Part shown: in pieces, positions 17,597 to 62,244 of the stretch
Position numbering within the stretch: the first letter of the stretch is position 1
How the letters are laid out: every line of letters starts with the position of its first letter
DNA from: Flavobacteriia bacterium
GTDB taxonomy: Bacteria > Bacteroidota > Bacteroidia > Flavobacteriales > Flavobacteriaceae
DNA: 64,000 bases
Assembly (NCBI GenBank): GCA_004293045.1
Contig: RDXY01000005.1
Location: forward strand, 17,607 to 81,606
Reading direction: 5' to 3'
Notes under the pieces: generated by a model
Told to the model about the DNA's origin: nothing
The model's input: the letters and a program-made list of their open reading frames with translations, nothing else
Databases searched by the model: none
Made by a program: the position numbers and the translations under genes

Positions 17597-17627
17597 ATTT
17601 TGTTTTTTAATTTGCGTTTATAAAGCA

Positions 17628-47233: not shown

Positions 47234-50056
47234 ATGTCTGAAGAAAGAGTAATACGAATAAGTAAAGTTTTAAAAGAATTCAACATTTCACTTGATCGAG
47301 CTGTTGACACCTTAAAAGAAAAGGGTCATACCATTGAGCACAGTCCCAATGCAAAAGTTTCTCAATTGGAATTCGACGTCTTGTGCGATATTTTTTCGGC
47401 CGATAAAGGAAATAAAGTAGCTTCGAAAGAAGTTGGCGAAGAAAAGAAAAAAGAAAAAGAAGCACTAAAACGTGAAATCGAAAAAGAACTCGAAGTGAAA
47501 CGTCTTGCCGAAGAAGAAAGACAAAAACAAGAAATAATAAAAGCAAAAGCAGTTGTTACCGCTCCGGTTTCTTTAGGAAAAATTGATTTAAATCCAAAAA
47601 AACAAGAAGCAACTAAAACAGATAAGCCAGCGGCTGCTAAAGAAAATAATGTTGTTTCAAAAGAAGAAAAAACAGTTGTTGCAGAAAAAACTTCAGACAA
47701 ACCTGCAGAAACTAGTAAAAAATCTGTTGAAAAAACAAAAGCAAAATCAGAAGAACCTTCAGTTCAACCTCAAGAATTTAATCCTGATGGCACACCAATT
47801 GAAGTGAAGTTAGATACTCAATACACCAAACTTTCAGGAGCTACTTTTACTGGTCAAACAATTGATTTATCTCAATTTAATAAACCAAAGAAAAAGAAAG
47901 AGGAATTTAAAAAACCAGGAACTCCAGGTGCTGTTGCAAATAAACCAGGAACTCCGGGAACGCCAGGTGCGGCAAATAAAAGAAAAAGAATCGTAAAGCC
48001 AGGAACATCAAATACAGGTGGAACAGGTGGAAATACGCCAGGTGGAGGTCAAGGTGGTTTTGTAAAAAAACCCTACCAAGGCGGACAAGGTGCAGGTGGT
48101 TTCAAAAAACCAGGTTTTAACAAATCAGCACCAATTGTAAAAGTTGAGCCAACGGAAGAAGAAGTAAAAAATCAAATCAAAGAAACTTTAGAAAGATTAC
48201 AAGGAAAAGGTAATAAATCTAAAGCTGCAAAATATAGAAGAGATAAAAGAGATACGCACCGTCAACGTACAGATGACGATTTAGCTCAACAAGATTTAGA
48301 AAGCAAAATCCTTAAAGTAACAGAATTTGTTACTGTAGGTGAAATTGCAACTATGATGGATGTGCCAATTACAAAAGTAATCGGAACGTGTATGTCTTTA
48401 GGAATTATGGTAACCATGAACCAACGTTTAGATGCTGAAACATTAACAATTGTTGCAGATGAATTTGGTTACGAAATGCAATTTATTACCACCGATATTG
48501 AAGAAAATGCAGTAATTATTGAAGATACTGAAGAAGAATTAGAATTCAGAGCACCAATTGTTACCGTTATGGGTCACGTAGATCATGGTAAAACATCGTT
48601 ATTAGATTATATTCGTAAAGCAAATGTTATTGCTGGAGAATCTGGAGGAATTACACAGCATATTGGTGCCTACGGAGTAACTTTAGATGGCGGCCAAAAA
48701 ATCGCTTTCTTAGATACACCTGGTCACGAAGCCTTTACGGCCATGCGTGCTCGTGGAGCGCAAGTTACCGATATTGCTATTATTGTAGTAGCGGCTGACG
48801 ACGACATCATGCCTCAAACGAAAGAAGCAATTTCACATGCACAAGCTGCAGGAGTTCCAATGATTTTTGCCATTAATAAGGTGGACAAACCCAATGCAAA
48901 TCCTGAGAAAATTAAAGAGCAATTAGCAGGTATGAATTTACTTGTAGAAGATTGGGGCGGAAAATACCAATCCCATGATATTTCTGCAAAATTCGGACAA
49001 GGTATTCCTGAATTATTAGAAAAAGTATTATTAGAAGCGGAGGTTCTTGAACTAAAAGCTAATCCAAATAAACCTGCACAAGGAACGGTAGTAGAAGCAC
49101 AATTAGACAAAGGCCGTGGGTATGTCTCTACGATTTTAGTACAAGCAGGAACTTTAAAAATTGGCGACTACATGTTGGCTGGTAAAAATCATGGTAAAAT
49201 TCGTGCCATGTTTGATGAAAGAGGAAACAATGTAAAAATTGCCGGACCTTCCACTCCAGTATCTGTTTTAGGTTTAGACGGAGCGCCAACAGCAGGAGAC
49301 AAATTTAATGTGTATGAAGAAGAAAGAGAAGCCAAACAAATTGCAACAAAACGGGCACAATTAGCTCGTGAGCAATCGGTTCGTACACAAAAGCATATTA
49401 CACTTTCAGAAATTGGACGTCGTATTGCTTTAGGTCAATTTAAAGAATTAAATATTATTCTTAAAGGAGACGTGGATGGTTCTGTAGAAGCACTATCTGA
49501 TTCGTTCTCTAAATTATCAACAGAAGAAATTCAAATTAATATCATTCATAAAGGAGTGGGAGCGATTACAGAATCTGACGTATTATTAGCTTCTGCTTCT
49601 GATGCTATTATTATCGGATTTAACGTTCGTCCGGCTGGAAATGCAAAAGCTTTAGCTGATAAAGAAGAAATTGATATCCGTAATTATTCTATTATTTACG
49701 CTGCTATCGACGATTTAAAAGATGCGATGGAAGGTATGCTTTCTCCAGAATTGAAAGAAGAAATTACAGGTACTGCCGAAATTAGAGAATTGTTTAAAGT
49801 ATCTAAAGTAGGAACAATCGCTGGATGTATGATTACAGATGGTAAAGTAATTCGTAGCAACAGAATCCGATTAATTAGAGAAGGTGTTGTTATTTTCACT
49901 GGAGAATTAGTGGCTTTAAAACGTTTCAAAGACGACGTAAAAGAAGTGTCTAAAGGATACGATTGTGGTATGCAAATTAAAGGATACAATGATATTAAAG
50001 AATATGATATTATTGAAAGTTTCCACGAAATTGAAATCAAAAAGAAATTAAAATAA
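47234..50056 (+). CDS. infB: Translation initiation factor IF-2
   Basis: A 940-residue GTPase that delivers initiator tRNA to the 30S subunit. The N-terminus holds an IF2-N segment, then a highly charged Glu/Lys part and a Gly/Pro-rich linker with repeats of KPGTPG (about residues 230-300). The G domain starts near residue 446 with GHVDHGKTS, then [15 protein letters not shown] and NKVDKPNA, followed by the fMet-tRNA-binding domains. It is the last gene of the operon. Confidence 0.96.
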
Positions 50057-50073
50057 AATTTCTTTAAAATATT

Positions 50074-50102
50074 AAATCCCAATGAAAATTGGGATTTTTT
50101 TT
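50074..50102 (+). terminator. Terminator of infB
   Basis: AAATCCCAAT (50074-50083) and ATTGGGATTT (50088-50097) form a 10-bp stem closed by a GAAA tetraloop, then T. Confidence 0.92.
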
Positions 50103-50211
50103 GTTCTATTCTTTTTTCATCCCTTTTTTTAAATGAAAAATAAAACAAAAATTAGTAGAAAATCTTTATATATTAAACATAAAAAAATATAATAATTTGT
50201 TTTTTTTAACT

Positions 50212-50219
50212 TATTTTTG
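50212..50219 (+). promoter_or_regulatory. -7 element of the aromatic degradation operon
   Basis: TATTTTTG, 21 bp upstream of the ATG at 50241. It is the only promoter-like element I see ahead of the nine co-directional genes. Confidence 0.45.
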
Positions 50220-50240
50220 AAGATACTAATATAACCTCAA

Positions 50241-50843
50241 ATGCAATTCGACATTCAAAACACCGAATCTTCGGCTTTATATAAACTATTGACAGGAACT
50301 GTTATTCCAAGACCCATCGCTTGGGTAGCTACGATCGATGAAAATGGAATGGATAATTTAGCCCCGTTTTCTTTTTTTAATGTCGTGAGTGAAGATCCGC
50401 CACACATTATGTTTTCAACGGTTCGAACTGGAAATAAAAACAAAGACACGTTAAATAATATTCTCGCCAATCAGCAATTTGTAGTCAATTTAGTTACCGA
50501 AGATGTTGTAGAACAAATGAATATTACTTCACAATCTGTAGCGGCTGATGTCAATGAATTTGAATTGGCAAACGTAACTCCAATAGATTCCATTTATATC
50601 AAACCAAAACGAGTAAAAGAAAGTTGGGTGCAATTTGAGTGCGAAATGGTTCATCATTATTTTATCGAAAAGCATCAAAATGGAGGCGCTTGTATTATCA
50701 TTGGAAAAATTATTACCATGCATATTGACGATTCCATTTTGATGGAAAACCATAAAATAGATTTAGAAAAATACAAACCTGTTGCGCGTTTAGCAGGTTC
50801 CAATTACAGTAAATTAGGAGAAATATTCTCTATTAAAAGATAA
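50241..50843 (+). CDS. Flavin reductase-like (DIM6/NTAB) protein
   Basis: A 200-residue FMN-binding split-barrel protein (YKLLTGTVIPRPIAWVATIDENG, NLAPFSFFNVVSEDPPHIMFST, NKDTLNNILANQQFVVN). Relatives are flavin reductases or flavin-binding oxidoreductases. As the first gene of the cluster it may supply reduced flavin to, or share work with, the monooxygenase encoded next. However, many members of this family have no proven reductase activity. The gap to the next gene is 39 bp and contains AATTATC repeats. Confidence 0.82.
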   Translation: MQFDIQNTESSALYKLLTGTVIPRPIAWVATIDENGMDNLAPFSFFNVVSEDPPHIMFSTVRTGNKNKDTLNNILANQQFVVNLVTEDVVEQMNITSQSVAADVNEFELANVTPIDSIYIKPKRVKESWVQFECEMVHHYFIEKHQNGGACIIIGKIITMHIDDSILMENHKIDLEKYKPVARLAGSNYSKLGEIFSIKR

Positions 50844-50845
50844 AT

Positions 50846-50877
50846 TAATTATCAATTATCCATTGTTAATTATCCAT
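50846..50877 (+). repeat. AATTATC-type intergenic repeat
   Basis: Three imperfect copies of AATTATC(CA) fill the gap between the first two genes of the cluster. Confidence 0.6.
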
Positions 50878-50882
50878 AAAAT

Positions 50883-53174
50883 ATGAAAATAACAGTTATA
50901 GGTGGTGGTCCAGGCGGACTTTACTTTTCGATATTAACCAAAAAAGCAATGCCGCATTGCCAAATCGATATTTACGAACGCAATAAGCCCGATGATAGTT
51001 TTGGATTCGGAGTTGTGTTTTCAGATGAAACCTTAGGCGAATTTTTAAAACGCGACATGCAATCGTATGAATTAATTCGAAGCAAATTTGCTTATTGGGA
51101 TGATATTATTATTGCAAGAGATGGTGAATCCGTAACTATTGCAGGAAATGGTTTTTGCGGTTGTTCCAGAAAAACACTACTGCAATTATTGCAACAACGT
51201 TGTGTGGAAGAAGGTGTGAATTTGCATTTCGAACAAAATGTAGAGGATCTATCACAATTTGCAGATTCCGATATTATTCTGGCAACAGACGGTATATCAA
51301 GTGCTATTCGAACAAAATACCAACAAGAATTCGGAACAGAAATCGAATTAAAAAAGAACCGCTTTGTGTGGTTAGGCTCCACAAAACCGCTTGACGCATT
51401 TACCTATTTTTTCAGAAGTACACCTCACGGAACCATAGTGGCGCATTCATATCAATACGAAGAAGGGATGAGTACTTGGATTTTTGAATGTAGCGATGAA
51501 ACTTGGCAAAAACATGGTTTTGAAGTCACCAACGAAGCAGACACGATGGCAAAAATTGCGGAAATATTCGCAGCCGAATTAGACGGACATCCCTTAATTT
51601 CAAATAAATCGCATTGGCGTCAGTTTCCGCATGTTACCAACCAAAATTGGTATCATAATAACATGGTTTTATTAGGCGATGCCAAAGCTACAGCCCATTA
51701 TTCTATTGGTTCAGGAACAAAATTAGCCATGGATAGCGCAATTGGATTATCCGATGCCGTGATTGCTCATCCAAATGATGTTCAAGCCGCTTTTGCACAA
51801 TATGATAAAACCCGAAGAAATACGGTTGAAATGATTCAATATGCCGCTATCGTTTCTTTAGATTGGTTTGAAAATATGGACCGTCACATGCAACATTCCT
51901 TTCAGCAATTTGCCTTTGGGTGCATGACGCGTTCTAAAAAAGTAACCTATGAAAATTTAAGGTTGAGAGACAGTTCTTTTACCGATAAAGTATTGGAAGA
52001 ATTTAATACCAATCACAATACCAATGTAAAAAATCAATCGGCTGCTTTTACACCATTTAAACTAAGAAGTGTAGCGTTACAAAACCGTATCGTAATGTCA
52101 TCCATGGGGCAATATGTAGCCGAAAACGGATTGGTGAACGATTGGCATTTTCAACATTATACCTCAAGAGCTGTGGGCGGTTTAGGATTAATTCTTACCG
52201 AAATGACTGCTGTTTCAGACACGGGAAGAATTACAGAAGGTTGCGCCGGAATTTATACCGAAAATCAAGTAAATGCTTGGAAACGAATTACTGATTTTAT
52301 TCACCAATATACCCAAACTAAAATCGGAATGCAATTGGGCCATTCAGGAAGAAAAGGCGGTTCTAATATTCCTTGGGAAGACCAATTTCAGGGTAAAAAA
52401 GGGGAGCTACTTTCAGCATCTGCCATTCCTTTTAATGAAAACTCTTCATGTCCGAAAGAAATGACTTTGGCAGACATGCAATGGGTTAAAAGTCAATTTG
52501 TACAAGCCACAAAAAATGCTAATGAAGCAGGTTTTGATATGATTGAATTACAAGCGCATCACGGCTTTTTATTGGCTTCTTTTTTGTCACCATTAACTAA
52601 TATTCGCACCGATGCATTTGGTGGAAGTGTTCAAAATCGTTTAAAATATCCATTAGAGATTTTTACAGCCATTCGGGAAGTATTTCCAAAAGAAAAGCCA
52701 ATCTCTGTTAGAATATCCGCAACCGATTGGGCAGAAAACGGAATTTCAGAACAAGATGTTTTGGTAATTTCTGAAGCGTTTAAAACGGCAGGTGCAGATA
52801 TTATTAATGTATCCACAGGAAATACGGTTGCCAACCAAAAACCACAAACTGGCAGAATGTGGCAGACACCATTTTCAGATGCAGTTCGAAATACGGTTCA
52901 TATTCCAACAATAACAGCCGGATATATTCAAGATATTGATCAAATTAATACCATAATTTTAAACGGAAGAGCCGATTTAGTGGCACTTGGAAGGCCTTTG
53001 TTATTGGATGCTAATTTTGTACGAAATGCGCAAGCGTATGAACAATTTCAAGCCAGGGATATTCCAAATTCCTATAAAATGGGTATTTCACATTTATATC
53101 CATTACAAGCTGCCGAAAGAAAACAAGCAGAAGGCATGAAAAAAGCATTGAAACCGAAAAGCAATAAATTATAA
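50883..53174 (+). CDS. Bifunctional aminobenzoyl/salicylyl-CoA monooxygenase-oxidoreductase
   Basis: A 763-residue two-domain flavoenzyme. Residues 1-375 are a class A FAD monooxygenase (GGGPGGLYFSIL at 7; FFRSTPHGTIVAHSYQYEE; GDAKATAHYSIGSGTKLAMD). Residues about 385-750 are an Old Yellow Enzyme-type FMN oxidoreductase (FTPFKLRSVALQNRIVMSSM; LQAHHGFLLASFLSPLTN; FGGSVQNRLKYP). This fusion is characteristic of 2-aminobenzoyl-CoA monooxygenase/reductase and the 'bifunctional salicylyl-CoA 5-hydroxylase' group, which hydroxylate the ring of the CoA thioester para to the amino or hydroxyl group. The adjacent CoA ligase and thioesterase agree. Which aromatic acid it uses is inferred. Confidence 0.9.
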   Translation: MKITVIGGGPGGLYFSILTKKAMPHCQIDIYERNKPDDSFGFGVVFSDETLGEFLKRDMQSYELIRSKFAYWDDIIIARDGESVTIAGNGFCGCSRKTLLQLLQQRCVEEGVNLHFEQNVEDLSQFADSDIILATDGISSAIRTKYQQEFGTEIELKKNRFVWLGSTKPLDAFTYFFRSTPHGTIVAHSYQYEEGMSTWIFECSDETWQKHGFEVTNEADTMAKIAEIFAAELDGHPLISNKSHWRQFPHVTNQNWYHNNMVLLGDAKATAHYSIGSGTKLAMDSAIGLSDAVIAHPNDVQAAFAQYDKTRRNTVEMIQYAAIVSLDWFENMDRHMQHSFQQFAFGCMTRSKKVTYENLRLRDSSFTDKVLEEFNTNHNTNVKNQSAAFTPFKLRSVALQNRIVMSSMGQYVAENGLVNDWHFQHYTSRAVGGLGLILTEMTAVSDTGRITEGCAGIYTENQVNAWKRITDFIHQYTQTKIGMQLGHSGRKGGSNIPWEDQFQGKKGELLSASAIPFNENSSCPKEMTLADMQWVKSQFVQATKNANEAGFDMIELQAHHGFLLASFLSPLTNIRTDAFGGSVQNRLKYPLEIFTAIREVFPKEKPISVRISATDWAENGISEQDVLVISEAFKTAGADIINVSTGNTVANQKPQTGRMWQTPFSDAVRNTVHIPTITAGYIQDIDQINTIILNGRADLVALGRPLLLDANFVRNAQAYEQFQARDIPNSYKMGISHLYPLQAAERKQAEGMKKALKPKSNKL

Positions 53175-53213
53175 ATAACAAATAACAAAAGCCAACTCCC
53201 AATAATTTTATAA

Positions 53214-53246
53214 TTTGGAATTTGGAATTTTCAAAATTGGAATTTT
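53214..53246 (+). repeat. TTGGAATTT-type intergenic repeat
   Basis: Three imperfect TTGGAATTT(T) units, preceded by two AATAACA units, in the gap before the ligase gene. The same GGAATTT unit occurs at 15334-15347 in an unrelated gap. Confidence 0.6.
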
Positions 53247-53249
53247 AGA

Positions 53250-54839
53250 ATGAATCAATACAAAGATAATTTTGCTCACAATAGCTTACCAGCACTGGAA
53301 TTACAACCAGAATATACCTTTTTGGATTTACCACAATTCCAACTTCCTGAAGTATTGAATTGCGTAGAAAAATTACTTGACAATCACATTAAAGAAGGCA
53401 GAGGAAATACCATTTGTATTCGAACCTTTGAGGAAACTTGGACCTATCAAGATTTGTTTGAAAAAGCCAATCAAATTGCGCATGTTTTAGTCGAAGATTT
53501 AGGTTTGCAATCGGGAAATCGAGTATTGTTGCGTTCCGCTAATAATCCCATGATGGTCGCTTGTTGGTTTGCGGTTTTAAAAGCGGGCGGAATTGTAGTG
53601 GCAACCATGCCCTTATTACGGGCTAAAGAAATAACTACTATTATTGATTGTGCTGAAATTTCTCACGCGCTTTGCGATAGCGATTTAGCTGAAGAAATGA
53701 ATTTAGTCCAATCCAATTTTCTAAAAAAAGTAAGTTTCTATAGAAATTCCGATTTAGAAAAGTTAATGGAATCCAAACCAAAAACATTTGATAAGTATCC
53801 GTCAAAATCAGAGGATGTCGCTTTGATTGGTTTTACTTCGGGTACCACAGGTTTGCCAAAAATGACAGCACATTATCACAAAGATATTCTTAATATTTGC
53901 GAAGCATTTCCAAACTATTCGCTGCAACCTACTTCAAATGATATTTTTATTGGAAGTCCGCCCATTGGTTTTACTTTTGGTTTAGGCGGATTGGTGTTGT
54001 TTCCGATGTACTTTGGTGCTTCCACTTTTTTAATCGAAAAACCAAGTCCAGATGTATTGTTGAAAGCCATTCAAGAGTATAAAATTACCATTTGTTTTAC
54101 TGCTCCAACCGCATGGCGAATGATTACAACAAAAAATCAAGACTACAATATTTCGAGTTTACGAAAATGTGTTTCAGCAGGTGAAACATTACCGTTAAAA
54201 GTTTGGCAAGATTGGTATGATGCCACAGGGCTAAAAATTATTGATGGCATTGGCGCTACCGAAATGCTACATATTTTTATTTCGTCAAACGAAGAAAATA
54301 TGAAACCCGGCGCAACTGGAAAAGCGATTTCAGGTTACGAAGCTAAAATTATTGACCAACATGGAAAAGAATTATCAAGAAATGAAGCGGGTCGATTAGC
54401 GGTTCGAGGAATTACAGGTTGTAAATATTTGAATCGAGAAGATAAACAAAAGGAATATGTTGAAAACGGCTGGAACATCACAGGCGATATTTTCCGTCAA
54501 GATGACGAAGGGTATTTTCATTTTGTGGCTCGTGGCGATGATATGATTATTTCTTCTGGTTATAATATTGCGGCAATTGAAGTAGAATCCGTACTTTTAA
54601 CTCATGAAAATATTTTAGAATGTGCCGTTGTAGGTTTACCCGATGAAGAACGAGGCATGTTGGTTTGTGCGCATATCGTTTTAAAAGAACAAGCAATGGC
54701 AGAGGAAGCCTTAAAAATTCAGATTCAAAATTGGTTTAAAAACACGGCAGCACCTTATAAATATCCAAGAGTCATTCATTTTGTAGATTGTTTGCCAAAA
54801 ACAGAGACAGGGAAAATTCAACGATTTAAGTTAAAATAA
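53250..54839 (+). CDS. 2-aminobenzoate/benzoate-CoA ligase family protein
   Basis: A 529-residue adenylate-forming ligase. The N-terminus LPALELQPEYTFLDLP and YPERLN-like PEVLNCVEKLLD are typical of 2-aminobenzoate-CoA ligases. The ATP loop is GFTSGTTGLPKM (about 194-205), then GATEMLHIF, the hinge GDIFRQDDEGYFHFVARGDD and the final catalytic Lys in KTETGKIQRFKLK. It should convert anthranilate (or another ortho-substituted benzoate) to its CoA thioester using ATP. It lies 75 bp after the monooxygenase gene. Confidence 0.88.
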   Translation: MNQYKDNFAHNSLPALELQPEYTFLDLPQFQLPEVLNCVEKLLDNHIKEGRGNTICIRTFEETWTYQDLFEKANQIAHVLVEDLGLQSGNRVLLRSANNPMMVACWFAVLKAGGIVVATMPLLRAKEITTIIDCAEISHALCDSDLAEEMNLVQSNFLKKVSFYRNSDLEKLMESKPKTFDKYPSKSEDVALIGFTSGTTGLPKMTAHYHKDILNICEAFPNYSLQPTSNDIFIGSPPIGFTFGLGGLVLFPMYFGASTFLIEKPSPDVLLKAIQEYKITICFTAPTAWRMITTKNQDYNISSLRKCVSAGETLPLKVWQDWYDATGLKIIDGIGATEMLHIFISSNEENMKPGATGKAISGYEAKIIDQHGKELSRNEAGRLAVRGITGCKYLNREDKQKEYVENGWNITGDIFRQDDEGYFHFVARGDDMIISSGYNIAAIEVESVLLTHENILECAVVGLPDEERGMLVCAHIVLKEQAMAEEALKIQIQNWFKNTAAPYKYPRVIHFVDCLPKTETGKIQRFKLK

Positions 54840-54861
54840 TTAGCTTTAAAATAACAGAAAT

Positions 54862-55278
54862 ATGCAATTTATAAAACAAGAAAAAGTTCGTTTCCAACAT
54901 ATCGATTATGCTGGAATAGTTTTCTATCCTCGATTTTTAGAAATGCTCAATGGTTTGGTGGAAGATTGGTTTGAAGAAGCGTTAGACAGCCCTTTTTCAA
55001 AAATGCATCAAACTAACGGTATTCCTACGGTTGATTTGAAAATTCAATTCAAAAATGCCGCCCGTTTGGGCGAAATCTTAACCAAAAAGCTTTGGGTAAA
55101 AGAGTTGAAAAATTCGTCTATTCTTTGTGGATTTAATTTTGTAAATGAAGCAGAAAACACCGTTTTAGAAGGCGAAGTTACCTTAGTAAATGTAGCGTTC
55201 AATCCTGAAAGAAATGGCATCAAAGCCGAACCTTTTAATGAGGAAATGAAAAGTAAAATTTCAAAATATATAGTATAA
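54862..55278 (+). CDS. 4HBT-family acyl-CoA thioesterase
   Basis: A 138-residue hotdog-fold thioesterase. The active site is HIDYAGIVFYPRF with D15, the 4-hydroxybenzoyl-CoA thioesterase signature. In this context it probably releases the hydroxylated aromatic acid from CoA before ring cleavage. It is followed by a gap of 148 bp with a long hairpin. Confidence 0.88.
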   Translation: MQFIKQEKVRFQHIDYAGIVFYPRFLEMLNGLVEDWFEEALDSPFSKMHQTNGIPTVDLKIQFKNAARLGEILTKKLWVKELKNSSILCGFNFVNEAENTVLEGEVTLVNVAFNPERNGIKAEPFNEEMKSKISKYIV

Positions 55279-55280
55279 CA

Positions 55281-55354
55281 ACACAGATTGAAGAAATCAG
55301 AGAAATATACACGGGATTTATTTTTCAAATTTCTTTAACTTCTTCAATCAGTGT
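55281..55354 (+). repeat. Long imperfect hairpin between thioesterase and nitrilase genes
   Basis: ACAC-A-GATTGAAGAA-ATC-AGAGAAAT pairs with ATTTCTTT-AAC-TTCTTCAATC-A-GTGT, giving about 22 pairs with two small internal mismatched patches and a 22-base loop. It lacks a T tract directly after the stem and so is not a typical terminator. It may be a small intergenic repeat element or an mRNA processing site. Confidence 0.7.
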
Positions 55355-55426
55355 TTAAAATTAAAATCAGCAATTATTAGCGTATGTAAAGCAATCTGTT
55401 TCATCCGCGTACCAAAACAATAAAAA

Positions 55427-56407
55427 ATGGAATTCAAAAAATTTATAGCCGCAACTGTTCAAACGTCACCAGTATTTCTTAATGTAGAAAAAACGGTGGA
55501 TAAAGCGATTTCTTTTATTAAAGAAGCGGCCTCAAACCAAGCAAAACTAATTGCTTTTCCTGAAGTATTTGTTTCGGGATATCCTTATTGGAATTGGATC
55601 ATGACGCCCGTTCAAGGGAGTAAGTGGTACGAAGCATTATATAAAAATTCAGTAGATGTGGCTGGACCTGAAATTCAGAAATTGTGTTTGGCTGCTAAAG
55701 AAAACGATATTCATATTGTAATCGGAATCAACGAACGAGGTTCAAGCTATGGCGAAATTTATAATACCAATTTAATCATCGACAACAAAGGGGTTATCAT
55801 CGGAAAACACAGAAAATTAGTACCAACTTGGGCAGAAAAACTGACTTGGACTTCAGGCGATGGGTCGTCATTAAAAGTCTATGATACCGAAATAGGACCT
55901 ATCGGAACTTTGGCGTGTGGCGAAAACACCAATACTTTGGCACGTTTTACGCTACTTTCGCAAGGCGAATTGATTCATATTGCTAATTACATTTCGCTAC
56001 CGGTTGCACCACCAGATTATGACATGGCAGAAGCGATTAAAATTAGAGCTGCAGCACATTCTTTTGAAGGGAAATTATTTACGATTGTTTCGTGTTCTAC
56101 GGTTTCACAAGAAATCAAAGATGCCTTACGAGCCGATGTGCCCAATGTAGATGAATTGTTAGACCGAAAAAGTTCGGCATTTTCTGGTTTTATTGGTCCA
56201 AATGGCGCTGTTATTGGACAACCTTTAATTGATGAAGAAGGAATAGTATATGCCGAAATTGATTTGGAAAAATGCATCCAACCGAAACAAATGCATGATA
56301 TTTTAGGTCATTATAATAGATTTGATATTTTCGATTTACGAGTAAATACGGCTCCTACCCGAAAAATTACATTTATAGACAATCACGAAGAATTTAATAA
56401 AAAATAG
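55427..56407 (+). CDS. Nitrilase-superfamily hydrolase
   Basis: A 326-residue C-N hydrolase with a complete catalytic triad: E46 (FPEVFVSGYPYW), K130 (GKHRKLVPTWAEKLTW) and C164 (TLACGENTNTLARF). The CGENTNTLAR block and length are closest to true nitrilases, though the superfamily includes amidases. Inside an aromatic-acid cluster that has a maleate isomerase but no other amidase, a role as an omega-amidase acting on a ring-fission amide such as maleamate is attractive. Nitrile hydrolysis is the alternative. Confidence 0.88.
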   Translation: MEFKKFIAATVQTSPVFLNVEKTVDKAISFIKEAASNQAKLIAFPEVFVSGYPYWNWIMTPVQGSKWYEALYKNSVDVAGPEIQKLCLAAKENDIHIVIGINERGSSYGEIYNTNLIIDNKGVIIGKHRKLVPTWAEKLTWTSGDGSSLKVYDTEIGPIGTLACGENTNTLARFTLLSQGELIHIANYISLPVAPPDYDMAEAIKIRAAAHSFEGKLFTIVSCSTVSQEIKDALRADVPNVDELLDRKSSAFSGFIGPNGAVIGQPLIDEEGIVYAEIDLEKCIQPKQMHDILGHYNRFDIFDLRVNTAPTRKITFIDNHEEFNKK

Positions 56408-56435
56408 TATTAAGATTAGAGTATTAAGTATTAAG
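56407..56435 (+). repeat. GTATTAAG intergenic repeat
   Basis: GTATTAAG occurs three times, with the last two overlapping in a tandem, in the 38-bp gap between the nitrilase and dioxygenase genes. Confidence 0.65.
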
Positions 56436-56445
56436 ACAACTTATT

Positions 56446-57555
56446 ATGCAAGATAAATTTTCAGATGACCAAATTGGTCGTGCAAGAGTACAAGATTCAC
56501 CAGAATTAGTTGCCTATTACAAAGAATTGGAAACATTAGGTGCGGGTGCTTTATGGACTGTAGCGAATGATATCGAACCTTGGGAGCCACGTTCCTCATC
56601 CGTACCCATGCTTTGGAAATATGATGATTTACGCGATTTAGTATTAAAATCATCCGAATTAGTAACACCTGAACAAGCAGGTCGTCGTGTGGTTTATTTA
56701 GTAAACGACAAACGTAAAGATGTATCAGCAGCTGTGGGTTGGTTGTACACTGGAATTCAAGTTACGCGTCCAGGCGAAAGCACTTCGGCACACCGTCATA
56801 AGGCTTCGGCATTGCGCTTTATTATGGAAGGTGAAAAAGGCTATACCGTTGTGGATGGAAATAAAATTATGCTGGAAGTGAATGATTTTGTCATCACCCC
56901 AAACTCCACTTGGCACGAACACGGTGTGGAAGAAGGTGGAAAAACCTGTATTTGGCAAGATGGTTTGGATATTCCTTTAGTAAATGCTTTAGAAGCCAAT
57001 GATTATGCCGTTTATGATGGTAAGCAACCTTTGGTGAAACCTTTAAATTACTCCCCTATTACTTATGGTTGTGCTGGATTAATTCCTGCTGATACAACGT
57101 GGGACAAACCCTATTCGCCTTTATTTAAATATTCTTGGAAAAACGTATACCCAGCTATATTAGAAGCTCAAAAAGTGAATGATGTTAATCCGTTTGATGG
57201 CATTTTTATGCAATATTCTAATCCTTTAACAGGCGGACACGTGATGCAAACTATGGGAGCCGCGATGCAATTATTACCCGCAGGTTTCAAAGGAAAAGCA
57301 CACAAGCATACGGGTTCGTTTGTATATCAATGTGCAAAAGGAAAAGGTTTTTCCATCATCAACGGACAACGTTTCGATTGGAAGGAAAGAGATATTTTCT
57401 GTGTTCCGAGTTGGGCTTGGCACGAACATCACAACCTTTCCGAGACCGAAGACGCTTGCTTATTTCAATTCAACGATTTACCTGTAATTGAAAGTTTAGG
57501 GCTTTTTCAATCAAGAGATTTGGAAGAAAATGATGGTCATCAGCAAATACAATAG
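56446..57555 (+). CDS. Gentisate 1,2-dioxygenase-like bicupin
   Basis: A 369-residue double cupin, the usual gentisate dioxygenase length. The first cupin shows TSAHRHKASALRFIMEG (H116, H118) and WHEHG (H157, H159); the second shows KAHKHTGSFVYQ and WAWHEHHN. PGESTSAHRHKASALRF is the key signature of gentisate/1-hydroxy-2-naphthoate dioxygenases. They open the ring between the carboxyl-bearing carbon and the neighbouring hydroxyl-bearing carbon. With 5-hydroxyanthranilate the same cleavage would produce an amide. The stop codon lies in the first unit of a hexamer repeat. Confidence 0.92.
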   Translation: MQDKFSDDQIGRARVQDSPELVAYYKELETLGAGALWTVANDIEPWEPRSSSVPMLWKYDDLRDLVLKSSELVTPEQAGRRVVYLVNDKRKDVSAAVGWLYTGIQVTRPGESTSAHRHKASALRFIMEGEKGYTVVDGNKIMLEVNDFVITPNSTWHEHGVEEGGKTCIWQDGLDIPLVNALEANDYAVYDGKQPLVKPLNYSPITYGCAGLIPADTTWDKPYSPLFKYSWKNVYPAILEAQKVNDVNPFDGIFMQYSNPLTGGHVMQTMGAAMQLLPAGFKGKAHKHTGSFVYQCAKGKGFSIINGQRFDWKERDIFCVPSWAWHEHHNLSETEDACLFQFNDLPVIESLGLFQSRDLEENDGHQQIQ

Positions 57556-57616
57556 CAATAGCAATAACTATAGCAATAATAATAACAATAACAATAACAA
57601 TAGCAATAGCAATATC
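57551..57616 (+). repeat. AATAGC/AATAAC hexamer array
   Basis: About eleven imperfect copies of AATAGC or AATAAC follow directly from the dioxygenase stop codon, which is itself part of the first unit. Confidence 0.85.
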
Positions 57617-57679
57617 AAATTCAAAATCAATAACAATTTTTGCTGCTTTGTAACTTAGCAACTTTGAAACATAAAAAAA

Positions 57680-58588
57680 ATGAAACTACTTACCTATAAA
57701 ACACAAGACACCGAGCCACGTTTGGGCTTCGTTCATAACAACCAAGTCATCGACATGGAAGATTTTGGAGAAATATCTAATTTCCCATTACCTAATGATA
57801 TGTTAGATTTAATTGATATGGGCTTTGAAATTATTGCTGAAATAAGCGAATTAATTTCGGAAACACCAGAAAATTTCTTCGAGGAAATCGCTTATGAAAT
57901 GAACGAAGTTACGATTTTAGCACCCATCGAAAAACCAAGAAAAAACATCATCGGTATTGGATTAAATTACACCGAACACGTGGCAGAAAGTGCTCGCGGT
58001 TTAGATACCACTGGAAAATTACCAACGAAACCTATTATTTTCTCCAAACCACCTACAACGGTTACAGGAACTAATACGGAAATAATAAAAAACAAAAAAT
58101 TAACCTCACAATTAGATTGGGAATGTGAATTAGCAGTTGTTGTTTCTAAAAAAGGAAAATATGTAACCAAAGAAAATGCAATGGATTATGTATTTGGTTA
58201 CACCGTAATTAATGATATTTCTGCACGCGATTGTCGTAGAGAAGGACAATGGATTGTATCTAAAGGACAAGATACTTTTGCACCAATGGGACCTTATTTG
58301 GTTACAAAAGACGAAATCGAAAACCCACATAACTTGAATTTATCGTTAAAAGTTAATGGTGTGGAAAAACAAAATTCCAACACCAAATTTATGTTGTTTA
58401 ACATCCATGATTTGATTGAAGATTTAAGTATTGTATTCACCTTAGAAGCTGGTGACATCATCGCAACCGGCACGCCAGCAGGCGTTGGAGCAGGTCGTGA
58501 CCCACAAGAATGGTTACACAATGGCGATATTGTTGAAGCTACAGTGGAAGGCATTGGAACAATTGTGAATACGATTAAAGAAATTTAG
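57680..58588 (+). CDS. FAA-family hydrolase (fumarylpyruvate/maleylpyruvate hydrolase-like)
   Basis: A 302-residue fumarylacetoacetase-superfamily hydrolase. The N-terminal substrate-cap part is followed by GIGLNYTEHVAES, IIFSKPPTTVTG, the metal ligands in LDWECELAVVVSKK and NDISARDCR, and AGDIIATGTPAGVGAGR. It should cleave the C-C bond of the ring-fission product to pyruvate plus a C4 acid. There is no maleylpyruvate isomerase in the cluster, so direct hydrolysis of the cis product is likely, which agrees with the maleate isomerase further on. Confidence 0.92.
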   Translation: MKLLTYKTQDTEPRLGFVHNNQVIDMEDFGEISNFPLPNDMLDLIDMGFEIIAEISELISETPENFFEEIAYEMNEVTILAPIEKPRKNIIGIGLNYTEHVAESARGLDTTGKLPTKPIIFSKPPTTVTGTNTEIIKNKKLTSQLDWECELAVVVSKKGKYVTKENAMDYVFGYTVINDISARDCRREGQWIVSKGQDTFAPMGPYLVTKDEIENPHNLNLSLKVNGVEKQNSNTKFMLFNIHDLIEDLSIVFTLEAGDIIATGTPAGVGAGRDPQEWLHNGDIVEATVEGIGTIVNTIKEI

Positions 58589-58602
58589 TTTTTTGGTTAA
58601 AG

Positions 58603-59229
58603 ATGGATCAAACAAAAATTGCAGTTGACATATTCAATAAACTTGCCACTGTTTATCAGGATAAGTTTATGGATGTTTCGTTGTATCATGATTCGCTTGA
58701 CGTATTTTGCCAAAGAATCCCAAAACAAAAGGCTGAAATTTTAGAATTGGCATGTGGTCCTGGTAATATCACAAAATATTTGTTGGAAAAACGTCCCGAC
58801 TTTAAGATACTGGGTACCGATTTAGCTCCCAATATGATTGAGTTGGCGCAAATTAATAATCCTACTGCCAAATTTCAATTATTGGATTGTAGGGATGTGA
58901 ATAAAACAAATACTAAATTCGATGCGATCGTCTGCGGTTTTGGATTTCCTTATTTGTCAAAAGAAGATGCGATACAATTTATCGCGGATGCGGGTAATCA
59001 GCTAAATTTCAATGGTGTTCTTTATTTTAGCACTATGGAGGATGACAATTCCAAATCTAGATTTAAAACCGGAAGTACTGGTGACAAAATGTATCAGAAT
59101 TTCCATCAAGCAGATTATTTGACTAAAGCACTCGAAGACAACGGTTTTAAAATAATAAATTTGCAACGTAAAAACTATTTTTACAATGAAGAATACACAA
59201 CCGATTTAATTATTATTGCAACAAAATGA
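58603..59229 (+). CDS. Class I SAM-dependent methyltransferase
   Basis: A 208-residue Rossmann-fold methyltransferase. The SAM-binding motif I is ILELACGPGNITKYLL, followed by ILGTDLAPNMIELA, QLLDCRDV and FDAIVCGFGFPYL. The family acts on small molecules. It overlaps the maleate isomerase gene by 4 bp, so it is a true member of the operon, but no methylation step is needed in the inferred pathway. Its role is unknown. Confidence 0.85.
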   Translation: MDQTKIAVDIFNKLATVYQDKFMDVSLYHDSLDVFCQRIPKQKAEILELACGPGNITKYLLEKRPDFKILGTDLAPNMIELAQINNPTAKFQLLDCRDVNKTNTKFDAIVCGFGFPYLSKEDAIQFIADAGNQLNFNGVLYFSTMEDDNSKSRFKTGSTGDKMYQNFHQADYLTKALEDNGFKIINLQRKNYFYNEEYTTDLIIIATK

Positions 59230-59975
59230 AAAAATACAGAATAGGACAAATAGTTCCATCTTCAAACGTAACGATGGAAACCGAAATACCAGCCATTTTT
59301 CGTTCACGAGAAACCATTTTACCTGAGCGTTTTACGTTTCACAGCAGTAGAATGCGTATGAAAAAAGTAACCAAAGAAGAACTCGAAGCCATGGATGCGA
59401 TGAGCTTAAAATGTGCGCAAGAATTGTCAGATGCTCACGTAGATGTGATGGGTTATGCCTGCTTGGTAGCCATAATGAGTATGGGACGCGGGTATCATTG
59501 TGTGTCGGAAGTAAATTTGCACCAAGAAACAATTGCTAATGATTTTCCAACGCCAATTGTAACTTCTGCAGGTGCATTAATTAACGGATTAAAAGTTTTA
59601 GGTGCGAAACAAATTTCGATTATTACACCTTATATGCGACCATTAACTGATATGGTGGTGGATTATATTGAAAATCAAGGCATCAAAGTAAAACAGAGTA
59701 TTGCTTTAGAAATTCCAGACAACTTAGAAGTAGCGGCACAAAATCCAATGAATCTATTAGAAATCTACAAACAATTAGATTTAACGGATGTCGATGTTTT
59801 AGTCGCTTCGGCTTGTGTGCAAATGCCATCTTTGGAAGCCATCGATTTAATTCAAGCAGCATGTGGCATTCCAGTTACTTCGGCTGCGGTTTGTACCACC
59901 TATGAAATGATGAAAAAAATTGGAATCGAAGCCAAATCCGCTATTGGAGGCGAATTATTAAGCGGGAAATATTAA
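59226..59975 (+). CDS. maiA: Maleate cis-trans isomerase
   Basis: A 249-residue Asp/Glu racemase-superfamily enzyme. The pattern VPSSNVTMETEIPAIF, GYACLVAIMSMG (C79) and ASACVQMPSLEAI (C197) matches maleate isomerases with their two catalytic cysteines. It converts maleate to fumarate, feeding the TCA cycle. As the last gene of the cluster it marks maleate as the predicted end of the upper pathway. Confidence 0.9.
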   Translation: MKKYRIGQIVPSSNVTMETEIPAIFRSRETILPERFTFHSSRMRMKKVTKEELEAMDAMSLKCAQELSDAHVDVMGYACLVAIMSMGRGYHCVSEVNLHQETIANDFPTPIVTSAGALINGLKVLGAKQISIITPYMRPLTDMVVDYIENQGIKVKQSIALEIPDNLEVAAQNPMNLLEIYKQLDLTDVDVLVASACVQMPSLEAIDLIQAACGIPVTSAAVCTTYEMMKKIGIEAKSAIGGELLSGKY

Positions 59976-59990
59976 ACAAAGTAACAGCAT

Positions 59991-60036
59991 AAAAATGCGT
60001 TCTGAATATTAACCAGAACGCATTTTGTTTTTTATA
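59991..60036. terminator. Terminator of the aromatic degradation operon
   Basis: AAAATGCGTTCTG (59992-60004) and CAGAACGCATTTT (60014-60026) form a 13-bp stem with a 9-base loop, then GTTTTTT. It also lies after the convergent TonB receptor gene. Confidence 0.92.
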
Positions 60037-60045
60037 TAGAATATT

Positions 60046-62244
60046 TTAAAAACTATATTTTGCTCCGCCATATATGTTTCTTCCTGCAGCATTAATTCCT
60101 GATGCAAAATTTCTATATTGCGTATCTAAAATATTTTCTATTCCTGTAAATAAAGTAAATCCTTCTATTGATTTTGTTGCAGCTTTAAAATTATATGTTT
60201 CCCAAGCAGGCATGCCATTTGCTGGGGCATAATTTAAGTTGTCTTCTCCACTTGTAGAATAATCACTTAACTGTTTTTTCCCGTTGAACAACATATAAGC
60301 TTCAAAAGTTGCCCAATTTGGCTCGTAATTAATTCCAAATTTTCCGAAAAATGGAGGAATATGATCTAAAGGTCTTTTGTTGCCATCAGTAGTAACTCGT
60401 CCTATAGTAATAGTATAAGAACCATTAAATTGCACGTTTTTAGCCAAAGTTGTTTTTATATTTCCGTTGACTCCAGTTACAAATGCTTTTCCTAAATTTT
60501 GATTAGCTACTACGTTTCTTACATCGCCACCACCAAAATCGTAGGTGTTTTGCCCATTAAAAGCAAATGTATCTGTTACAATAGCATCGTATAATTGCGT
60601 GTAAAAATAGGTAGCATCAAATTGATGTTTGTTCGATTTAGATTTTAAAACAAATCCAAAATCTCCAGTAACAGTTTGTTCTGGTTTCAAATCTTTATTA
60701 GGAACAATTAAAGTCCCAGCGCCAGATTCAAATATTTTTGCTAAATCATCAATATTTGGCACTCTAAAACCAGAGCTAAAATTAGTTTTAAGTATAAAAT
60801 TTTCAGAAGCGTTATGCACCATTCCTATGTTTCCACTGTAGGTTAAGTTTTGCTGTTTGATTTCATTAAAAGGCAAGGGCATTATTGAATTATCTGCAAT
60901 TGTACTAGTAAGCGTAGCGTATCCAACTCTTGCACCCATTGAAAAATTAGTAGCCACATATCTTTTGGAAGAATAAGAAACATAAATATCATTTCGCATC
61001 ATATTGTTTTTTCCATTCGGATATCTAGTGTCTAATGGAACTACTACGCCTGTATTAATATTGTTTTTAAAAGCAGTCGATTTCAAATCATCATAGTAAT
61101 TTTCCATACCATAATACAGATTTCCTTTTTTTAATTTGGTTTCAAAATTGGCGGCTAATGAATATATGTTCACATTTTCTATTCTATTTTGTAGATTGTA
61201 ATTTCTGTAATTTCTATTCCTTCTACTTTCTTCCACGTTTTGATAACCCGCATCTAGTTTGAAATCGGTATTAGTAAATACATTTTCTTTTTCTATGCTA
61301 TACACACCTAAAAGTCTTTTTTGTGGGCCGTAGTACCATTCCGCACTTTTTAAACCGGAACCTGCAGGATCTGTTAATCGATCGTATCTATTGATGTTTG
61401 AAGAGGTGGAATATTGAAAATTGGCATTATGAGTATATCCGCTTTTAGATTTGTAAATGAATTTTTGCATAAAGTTGTATTGTTTATAAGCACTCCCAAC
61501 TTGCACATATTTATTGTCATTTTGAGTTAAAACATCCACTCCATTTATGGTTTCAACATATTTTGTTCTTTCTCCAAAAAAATCACCGTTATGATTTTTA
61601 GATTTTCCCATTTTCAAATCACCAAAATCATTGTATGAAAAAGCAGTTAACGATGCAAAGTTTCCGCTACCATAATTAATATCAAAATAGCCAGATTTTT
61701 CTTCGTTTACAGAAGAATATCGGGTATTAAAATTTCCAGTAAAACCGCCAATAAATTTCGCGTTTTTTGTAATCATATTTACCGAACCTCCAAGTGCGTC
61801 ACTTCCATATAATGTTGAAGTTGGGCCGTATTGTACCCATGCTGCTTCTAGGAAATTTTCATCAACAGTTATTACATTTTGCAAATGACCCGATCTAAAA
61901 ATTAGATTGTTCATACGTATGCCATCAACTAAAAGTAAAATTCGACTGGATTCAAATCCTCTAATGACAGGACTTCCGCCGCCTTGCTGCGATTTCTGAA
62001 CAAATAAAGCACCTGAATTTGCCAACATGTCGGCGGTGCTTTGAAAGTTTTGAAATTCTATTTTTTCTTTTGAAAAGAGTTCAATTTGAGAAGGAGTTTG
62101 ATTTTTATCAATTGTAATTTTTTTAGAATTGATTTTTATTTCTTCGATGTTTTGTGTTTTGATGGTATCTGTAACTTCTTGACTAAATGATGATTGTGTG
62201 TTTATAATTAGGAAACCAATGAGGAATAAGTATTTTTTTATCAT
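60046..62244 (-). CDS. TonB-dependent receptor
   Basis: A 732-residue outer-membrane receptor. The signal peptide is MIKKYLFLIGFLIINTQSSFS. The plug has SGALFVQKSQQGGGSPVIRGFESSRILLLVDGIRMNN and YGSDALGGSVNMIT, close to heme/hemoglobin or transferrin-type and vitamin B12 receptors. The barrel ends NIYGGAKYSF. No CarboxypepD-like domain is seen, unlike the receptor at 30.9 kb. It is convergent with the degradation operon and there is no direct evidence that it imports an aromatic substrate. Confidence 0.93.
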   Translation of the reverse strand: MIKKYLFLIGFLIINTQSSFSQEVTDTIKTQNIEEIKINSKKITIDKNQTPSQIELFSKEKIEFQNFQSTADMLANSGALFVQKSQQGGGSPVIRGFESSRILLLVDGIRMNNLIFRSGHLQNVITVDENFLEAAWVQYGPTSTLYGSDALGGSVNMITKNAKFIGGFTGNFNTRYSSVNEEKSGYFDINYGSGNFASLTAFSYNDFGDLKMGKSKNHNGDFFGERTKYVETINGVDVLTQNDNKYVQVGSAYKQYNFMQKFIYKSKSGYTHNANFQYSTSSNINRYDRLTDPAGSGLKSAEWYYGPQKRLLGVYSIEKENVFTNTDFKLDAGYQNVEESRRNRNYRNYNLQNRIENVNIYSLAANFETKLKKGNLYYGMENYYDDLKSTAFKNNINTGVVVPLDTRYPNGKNNMMRNDIYVSYSSKRYVATNFSMGARVGYATLTSTIADNSIMPLPFNEIKQQNLTYSGNIGMVHNASENFILKTNFSSGFRVPNIDDLAKIFESGAGTLIVPNKDLKPEQTVTGDFGFVLKSKSNKHQFDATYFYTQLYDAIVTDTFAFNGQNTYDFGGGDVRNVVANQNLGKAFVTGVNGNIKTTLAKNVQFNGSYTITIGRVTTDGNKRPLDHIPPFFGKFGINYEPNWATFEAYMLFNGKKQLSDYSTSGEDNLNYAPANGMPAWETYNFKAATKSIEGFTLFTGIENILDTQYRNFASGINAAGRNIYGGAKYSF

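Follow-up and report, generated by a model that had tools for sequence, protein, structure and literature searches.

Which aromatic acid is degraded by a nine-gene operon of a Flavobacteriaceae bacterium, and does its ring open before or after the nitrogen is lost? The operon occupies positions 50241–59975 of a stretch of 64,000 nucleotides (the window, meaning the whole stretch that was analysed), positions 17,607 to 81,606 of contig RDXY01000005.1 in the Flavobacteriia bacterium assembly GCA_004293045.1, which is 1.68 Mb in size and 75.6% complete. The operon probably encodes a complete anthranilate pathway. Its ring would be opened before the nitrogen is lost and degradation would run via maleamate, through reactions that we infer from the predicted enzymes. 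The gene cluster is not a chance arrangement, and eight of the genes keep their order in Flavobacterium relatives.

The operon and its predicted route

The window was previously described from its letters alone (the sequence-only reading) as bearing nine co-directional genes, and nine open reading frames (ORFs) on the plus strand fill the interval, with intergenic gaps of at most 148 bp in the ORF list. The gene families named in that reading were recovered by family scans, several of them scoring under the NCBI curated cut-offs. The features are as follows.

50241..50843, + strand: flavin-reductase-like protein (PF01613), 200 aa, by family scan; conserved, with no assigned step
50883..53174, + strand: fusion of a FAD monooxygenase and an Old Yellow Enzyme (OYE) domain, of the 2-aminobenzoyl-CoA monooxygenase/reductase (ABMR) type; predicted 2-aminobenzoyl-CoA 5-hydroxylase with an altered reductase domain
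53250..54839, + strand: predicted anthranilate-CoA ligase (AMP-forming); best Protein Data Bank (PDB) match 4wv3
54862..55278, + strand: 4HBT hotdog-fold thioesterase, by family scan; predicted 5-hydroxyanthraniloyl-CoA thioesterase
55427..56407, + strand: nitrilase-superfamily enzyme (E46, K130, E137, C164; CGENTN motif); predicted maleamate amidase
56446..57555, + strand: bicupin of the GDOsp (PDB 3bu7) clade; predicted 5-hydroxyanthranilate 1,2-dioxygenase
57680..58588, + strand: fumarylacetoacetate (FAA) hydrolase; predicted maleamylpyruvate (acylpyruvate) hydrolase yielding pyruvate and maleamate
58603..59229, + strand: class I methyltransferase; occasional guest with no pathway assignment
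59226..59975, + strand: predicted maleate cis-trans isomerase; best PDB match 4fq7
59991..60025, no strand assigned: likely terminator

In the proposed route the ligase would convert anthranilate to 2-aminobenzoyl-CoA, which the FAD domain of the fusion would hydroxylate at C5, the OYE domain no longer reducing the ring. The thioesterase would then free 5-hydroxyanthranilate from its CoA ester, and the bicupin would cleave it between C1 and C2 to give maleamylpyruvate (C7H7NO5). The FAA hydrolase would split this product into pyruvate and maleamate, the nitrilase-family enzyme would convert maleamate to maleate and ammonia, and the isomerase would turn maleate into fumarate. CoA activation, 5-hydroxylation, C1–C2 cleavage to an amide, FAA hydrolase, nitrilase and isomerase had already been proposed in the sequence-only reading, and this is the best-supported reading in view of the nitrilase conservation, the feeder genes and the altered OYE domain described below. 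The thioesterase step before ring cleavage is an addition to that reading. The Azoarcus ABMR pathway, which had been called anaerobic-type, is described as aerobic in a review (PMC4539516).

The fusion protein scores 975 bits against NF006101 (cut-off 1078) and covers model positions 1–762 of 768; it has the full-length ABMR architecture, and its two halves match OYE and VioD PDB entries. The maleate isomerase candidate matches 4fq7, from P. putida S16, with 314 bits across residues 1–249 (full length), and 2xec with 183 bits. The CoA ligase is of the benzoate/anthranilate type and scores 280 bits to the anthranilate-CoA ligase 4wv3, the next PDB match reaching 225 bits. It is 46–50% identical to the ABMR-adjacent ligases in L152–L156 and L158; one of these, L155, was equated by position with the Arthrobacter Rue61a plasmid ligase that is reported to form anthraniloyl-CoA (PMC3534580).

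The bicupin falls outside the curated gentisate 1,2-dioxygenase family TIGR02272 (303 bits, cut-off 442), and its nearest PDB entry is 3bu7 (GDOsp) with 520 bits and 60% identity, followed by a match of 232 bits. Both cupins carry a three-His site (H116, H118, H157 and H286, H288, H326). The second-cupin residues H286, H288, H326 and H328 are specific to the clade, with at most one exception each over 97 clade members. A set of 38 positions is fixed in at least 97% of these members and unshared with four canonical enzymes (some being gaps there); two of them, E158 and Q171, adjoin active-site motifs. The clade-specific positions leave the choice between gentisate and 5-hydroxyanthranilate undecided. 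The nitrilase is a CN hydrolase of the Nit6803 type (231 bits, cut-off 503) whose named near relatives are from Flavobacterium, and the catalytic Glu-Lys-Glu-Cys residues are kept in 88 of 88 members of its clade, window included.

Conservation among Flavobacterium relatives

A genome-contig scan with an alignment of 11 bicupins provided the best 80 of at least 576 relatives (L045–L124), nearly all of them Flavobacteriaceae by title, and gene counts take only those loci with enough flank. Homologous operons routinely lacking the nitrilase had been named in the sequence-only reading as evidence to the contrary. This test did not refute the route: of the 77 relatives that could be judged, 76 have the nitrilase gene upstream of the bicupin gene. 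The maleate isomerase is present in 71/71 relatives and the ABMR fusion in 63/65. The FAA hydrolase is kept in 77/77 relatives, the thioesterase in 75/76, the ligase in 69/71 and the flavin-reductase-like gene in 62/65, while L114 has none of the five upstream genes. The methyltransferase, formerly counted as an operon member, is present in just 10 of 71 relatives and is thus an occasional guest outside the conserved unit.

The nitrilase and bicupin are separated by at most 300 bp in 66 of the 78 loci with both genes; other sequence intervenes in 12, amounting to 7.3 kb in L119. Unrelated genes are inserted within the operons of many relatives, and that the core has nonetheless been kept carries the more weight. 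Given how closely related the contig loci are, their counts cannot be taken as independent. The bicupin is encoded in 86 of 199 Flavobacterium-genus genomes and in 6 of 395 genomes of a phylum sample, all six belonging to the genus of the window.

The operon of L045–L124 is a hot spot for unrelated insertions between core genes, and a glutamate-synthase-like protein (by eye) of about 526 aa is encoded between the ligase and the thioesterase in 25 loci. Such extra genes were considered for a part in the pathway and, judged by eye, dismissed as cargo unrelated to it. Three loci titled Limnohabitans (L074), Sphingobacterium thalpophilum (L105) and Bifidobacterium breve (L109) bear Flavobacterium-like operons, and it is likely that these titles are wrong or the bins mixed.

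Bicupin loci beyond Flavobacterium

Since the contig scan is nearly all Flavobacteriaceae, diversity rests on plasmid records and on L160, from another Flavobacteriaceae genus. Seventeen plasmid rows had a bicupin of at least 54% identity; 16 were taken, H66 (the second N. humi record) being left out, and with L160 these form a set of 17 loci. The CGENTN nitrilase clade and the maleate isomerase occur together in 10 of the 17 and are jointly missing from the other 7 (Fisher p = 5e-5, kinship ignored). The nitrilases of the ten loci belong to the clade of the window nitrilase, with 60–66% identity. A nitrilase of a different clade, the CWENYMP type, is present in five of the seven isomerase-free loci.

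Among control loci, no member of the nitrilase clade and no maleate isomerase was found near the canonical gtdA genes (L148–L151, 4 of 45 such records), three of which have maiA beside them. No nitrilase is encoded near the nine ABMR genes without an adjacent bicupin (of 97 ABMR-bearing records); beta-oxidation-type genes accompany seven of these and RidA eight. A third ABMR arrangement is seen in L154 and L155 (Rhodococcus and Arthrobacter Rue61a plasmids), consisting of a ligase, an ABMR with intact OYE residues (H-type), a small single cupin, a FAA hydrolase, an acyl-CoA thioesterase and RidA.

Homologues of the flavin-reductase-like protein are encoded near the bicupin in L038–L041, L142, L143 and L162; the gene is kept in all but one of the seven isomerase-free loci and in G135 (L162), from another Flavobacteriaceae genus. 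In L039, L040, L041, L142 and L143, which have no maleate isomerase, the CWENYMP-type nitrilase adjoins the PF01613-like protein. PF01613 is the sole domain seen in the window protein by family scan, and PMC7225977 describes the dioxindole oxygenase IifA as a two-domain protein with a SnoaL-fold C-terminal part; a possible identity with IifA is not supported.

Feeder genes and the aromatic substrate

Feeder genes for nitrogen-containing aromatics, of three kinds, lie near 7 of the 17 bicupin modules. An isatin hydrolase is encoded near the module in four (L035, L036, L037 and L160, the last two by similarity), with PDB matches of 461 bits to 5nmp for L035 and 336 bits to 5nna for L036. IorA, annotated as an indolepyruvate ferredoxin oxidoreductase, is encoded near six, and the tryptophan dioxygenase KynA and kynureninase KynU are encoded upstream of one (Embleya, L146). 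On the ABMR side, kynU and kynA are found within the L158 operon and a tryptophan dioxygenase gene is beside the L152 ABMR. Because a salicylate route would not predict them, feeder genes near related modules favour a nitrogen-bearing ring.

The salicylate route is an improbable alternative, yet survives better than the others. Salicylyl-CoA would be converted to gentisyl-CoA, gentisate, maleylpyruvate and then maleate and pyruvate, the maleate being isomerised, and the nitrilase would be unrelated or serve to turn a nitrile into an acid. The name NCBI gives to the fusion family, 'bifunctional salicylyl-CoA 5-hydroxylase/oxidoreductase', agrees with this route, as does the naming of the nearest solved bicupin relative as a gentisate dioxygenase. 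Family scans found no maiA-type maleylpyruvate isomerase among the nine ORFs, which is not decisive: direct hydrolysis of maleylpyruvate, as in some gentisate pathways, together with maleate isomerase needs no such enzyme. However, the nitrilase of nearly all testable relatives would be left without a role, the ligase is nearest to an anthranilate-CoA ligase, and it is isatin hydrolase, IorAB or kynurenine-pathway genes that accompany the seven modules, in a survey that did not search for salicylate or naphthalene feeders.

IorAB could make 2-aminobenzoyl-CoA from isatinate, since isatinate is a 2-oxo acid. Such a supply fits the fact that no ligase was detected in L035, nor in L160, where the module, an ABMR, an isatin hydrolase and IorAB are all encoded. 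L160 also bears a protein matching 7z4x (583 bits) and a StyB-like reductase, a styrene/indole-monooxygenase-like pair. We take 7z4x to be an indole monooxygenase, so L160 may carry end-to-end indole degradation. L160:383–17119 and L162:3584–6292 form one region in G135, with this pair, a short-chain dehydrogenase/reductase, the isatin hydrolase, IorAB, a thioesterase, an ABMR with the altered OYE residue (Q-type) and the divergent nitrilase-bicupin-FAA hydrolase-isomerase set. This region is possibly a complete indole degradation locus, judging by its gene content.

In Embleya sp. NBC_00888 (L146:4268–12869), the tryptophan dioxygenase and kynureninase genes (by similarity) lie upstream of the nitrilase-bicupin-FAA hydrolase-isomerase set. 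Amidohydrolase-like and AraC-like ORFs (by eye) are also upstream, and the genes between KynA and the nitrilase are hard to call. No ABMR was found on the 5.7 Mb replicon of this strain.

The altered OYE domain of the fusion

The His/His/Tyr residues of OYE enzymes function in substrate binding and proton donation, and the OYE domain of the Azoarcus fusion dearomatises the ring. The window fusion does not have the intact triad and carries Q557, H560 and F562 in its place, Q557 and F562 aligning with the His and Tyr of 8uaj, an OYE-family NADPH dehydrogenase. Among the ABMRs compared, Gln replaces the first His in all 71 that have a bicupin gene no more than 8 kb away (64 contig loci, the window, L034, L035, L041, L142, L143 and L160; L134 was excluded as a duplicate of the L074 gene). 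The Tyr position of these is F in 68, Y in 2 and N in 1. The other 10 ABMRs compared, which have no bicupin link, all carry H/H/Y. The tenth of them is from Leisingera (L164), where some 18 kb separate the ABMR gene from a partial bicupin gene of that replicon and a short-chain dehydrogenase/reductase and an enoyl-CoA hydratase adjoin it.

A tree of the monooxygenase domain only (23 rows), which carries long-branch warnings, needs three changes of the Q label, forced by well-supported branches. There are three gains of Q if H is ancestral, as in 8uaj, and two under the least favourable rooting. As 66 of the 71 Q-type ABMRs are from Flavobacteriaceae-type loci, the independent Q lineages are Flavobacteriaceae, Burkholderiaceae and Novosphingobium. 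On this phylogeny, Q at the first OYE His is placed as having arisen at least twice. Our reading of this pattern is that the ring-destroying reductase would be retired when a ring-cleaving dioxygenase follows.

An Azoarcus-type aerobic route, in which the fusion would both hydroxylate and reduce 2-aminobenzoyl-CoA, the non-aromatic product would enter beta-oxidation and the bicupin would serve elsewhere, is very unlikely. The same fusion architecture does occur with beta-oxidation-type genes at most of the ABMR loci lacking an adjacent bicupin. In the window, however, family scans of the nine ORFs found neither RidA nor any beta-oxidation gene; what is conserved is the bicupin with the FAA hydrolase and the isomerase, and the fusion has lost the H and Y residues kept in the unlinked ABMRs. 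There is equally little to recommend deamination of 5-hydroxyanthranilate to gentisate before cleavage, by the nitrilase-family protein or an unlinked enzyme, since family scans found no other deaminase family among the nine ORFs, the nitrilase clade tracks the maleate isomerase and not the bicupin as such, and nitrilase-superfamily enzymes are known to take nitriles and amides and not aryl amines as substrates. Its precedent is the 5-hydroxyanthranilate/gentisate route reported for Nocardia opaca in 1968, as reviewed in PMC4539516.

Weighing the proposed nitrogen-retaining route

Several observations weigh against ring opening with the nitrogen attached. GDOsp, at 60% identity, was deposited as a gentisate 1,2-dioxygenase and was reportedly active in assays. 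The close solved relatives of the window nitrilase are nitrilases and cyanide-degrading enzymes, so that its amidase activity is assumed, and the flavin-reductase-like gene is conserved yet has no step in the route. Seven bicupin-clade loci have neither the nitrilase clade nor the isomerase, so the presence of the bicupin is not enough to identify the route. The sole ABMR found on the replicon of the module in R. pomeroyi, in Leisingera (the replicon of L147) and on the larger Shinella replicon is H-type and at least 18 kb from the module. Replicon searches in Embleya, Sagittula, Sulfitobacter THAF37, Leisingera (L144) and Shinella (L036) found no ABMR; the other plasmid of Sagittula bears one (H25). 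Modules without a linked Q-type ABMR are either served by an unlinked hydroxylase or receive a substrate that is already 5-hydroxylated. Tryptophan dioxygenase and kynureninase are encoded in 184 and 189 of the 199 Flavobacterium-genus genomes, and no correlation of either with the operon was seen over that set; being near-universal in the genus, they are uninformative on the operon. A distant cupin, 5NSDO, is inactive on 5-hydroxyanthranilate (PMC10306065).

The least certain elements are the predicted preference of the bicupin for 5-hydroxyanthranilate over gentisate and the role of the nitrilase as a maleamate amidase, which is predicted from its position and its co-occurrence with maleate isomerase.

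A wider reading, to which we give an even chance, is that the 5-hydroxyanthranilate/maleamate sequence constitutes a new central ring-cleavage pathway. It would be spread over Bacteroidota, Proteobacteria and Actinomycetota and would drain anthranilate, indole or auxin products and tryptophan, with entry through the ligase, through isatin hydrolase and IorAB (2-aminobenzoyl-CoA from isatinate) or through KynA-KynU. The OYE half would have lost its reductase role more than once, on takeover by the bicupin. PDB 3bu7 would be a 5-hydroxyanthranilate 1,2-dioxygenase and not a gentisate enzyme, and hydroxylase-less modules of the Embleya KynA-KynU type may degrade 5-hydroxylated indoles such as 5-hydroxytryptophan.

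Flanking genes and signals

The operon is flanked upstream by an IF-2 (infB) ORF (47234–50056) and downstream by a convergent TonB-receptor-like ORF on the minus strand (60046–62244), both named by eye. The G+C content of window positions 48001–60000 is 0.354–0.364, compared with 0.296–0.335 in the remaining 4 kb steps. The promoter-like element of the sequence-only reading is unsupported: a sigma-70 promoter scan returned 32 sites, fewer than the shuffle mean of 40.8. A TATTTTTG box at 50212–50219 is similar to what we take to be the Bacteroidota -7 element, and has no TTG at the expected spacing. The terminator is plausible by eye, as an inverted repeat followed by a T run, but was not flagged by the same scan.

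Comparison with known systems

Aerobic use of anthranilate follows four pathways in a review (PMC4539516), among them the Azoarcus CoA route and the gentisate route of Nocardia via 5-hydroxyanthranilate. No description of nitrogen-retaining ring cleavage of 5-hydroxyanthranilate, or of maleamate from anthranilate, was found in the open-licence PMC literature. The parts are known families, and their assembly and predicted activities appear new. The breakdown of tryptophan, indole and auxin commonly drains into anthranilate, and the route, if true, adds to the known aerobic fates of that compound. It predicts new activities, among them a 5-hydroxyanthranilate 1,2-dioxygenase and a nitrilase-family maleamate amidase, for proteins whose present annotations are gentisate dioxygenase, nitrilase and salicylyl-CoA hydroxylase. 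The second half of the fused enzyme was apparently retired more than once upon a change in the downstream pathway.

The Nocardia opaca route (Cain 1968) shares the 5-hydroxyanthranilate intermediate, but gentisate is formed there before cleavage and no genes are named in the excerpt of PMC4539516. The ABMR pathway of Azoarcus evansii resembles the proposed one in activating anthranilate as its CoA ester and in using an FAD monooxygenase fused to an OYE domain; in contrast, the operon is predicted to proceed without ring reduction or beta-oxidation, its OYE residues are altered and a ring-cleavage module is added. The salicylyl-CoA-to-gentisate pathway shares with the operon a CoA ligase, CoA-ester 5-hydroxylation, a thioesterase, a gentisate-type bicupin and an acylpyruvate hydrolase. 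The difference lies in the predicted substrate, with NH2 and not OH at C2 so that an amide would result, in the conserved nitrilase-family enzyme and in the isatin/kynurenine feeders of some relatives. GDOsp (3bu7) of Ruegeria (Silicibacter) pomeroyi shares 60% identity and the second-cupin His residues with the window bicupin. The 3bu7 sequence matches, over the compared stretch, the R. pomeroyi bicupin of L033, which sits in a nitrilase-bicupin-FAA hydrolase-isomerase cluster beside IorAB; GDOsp is named for gentisate, whereas its predicted physiological substrate is 5-hydroxyanthranilate. The maleamate branch of nicotinate/nicotine catabolism (NicF, NicE/Iso) converts maleamate to maleate and then fumarate, the same two steps as proposed here, and the isomerase of the operon is homologous to 4fq7. 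Deamidation in the operon is predicted to be carried out by a nitrilase-superfamily enzyme, whereas NicF is an isochorismatase-type amidase.

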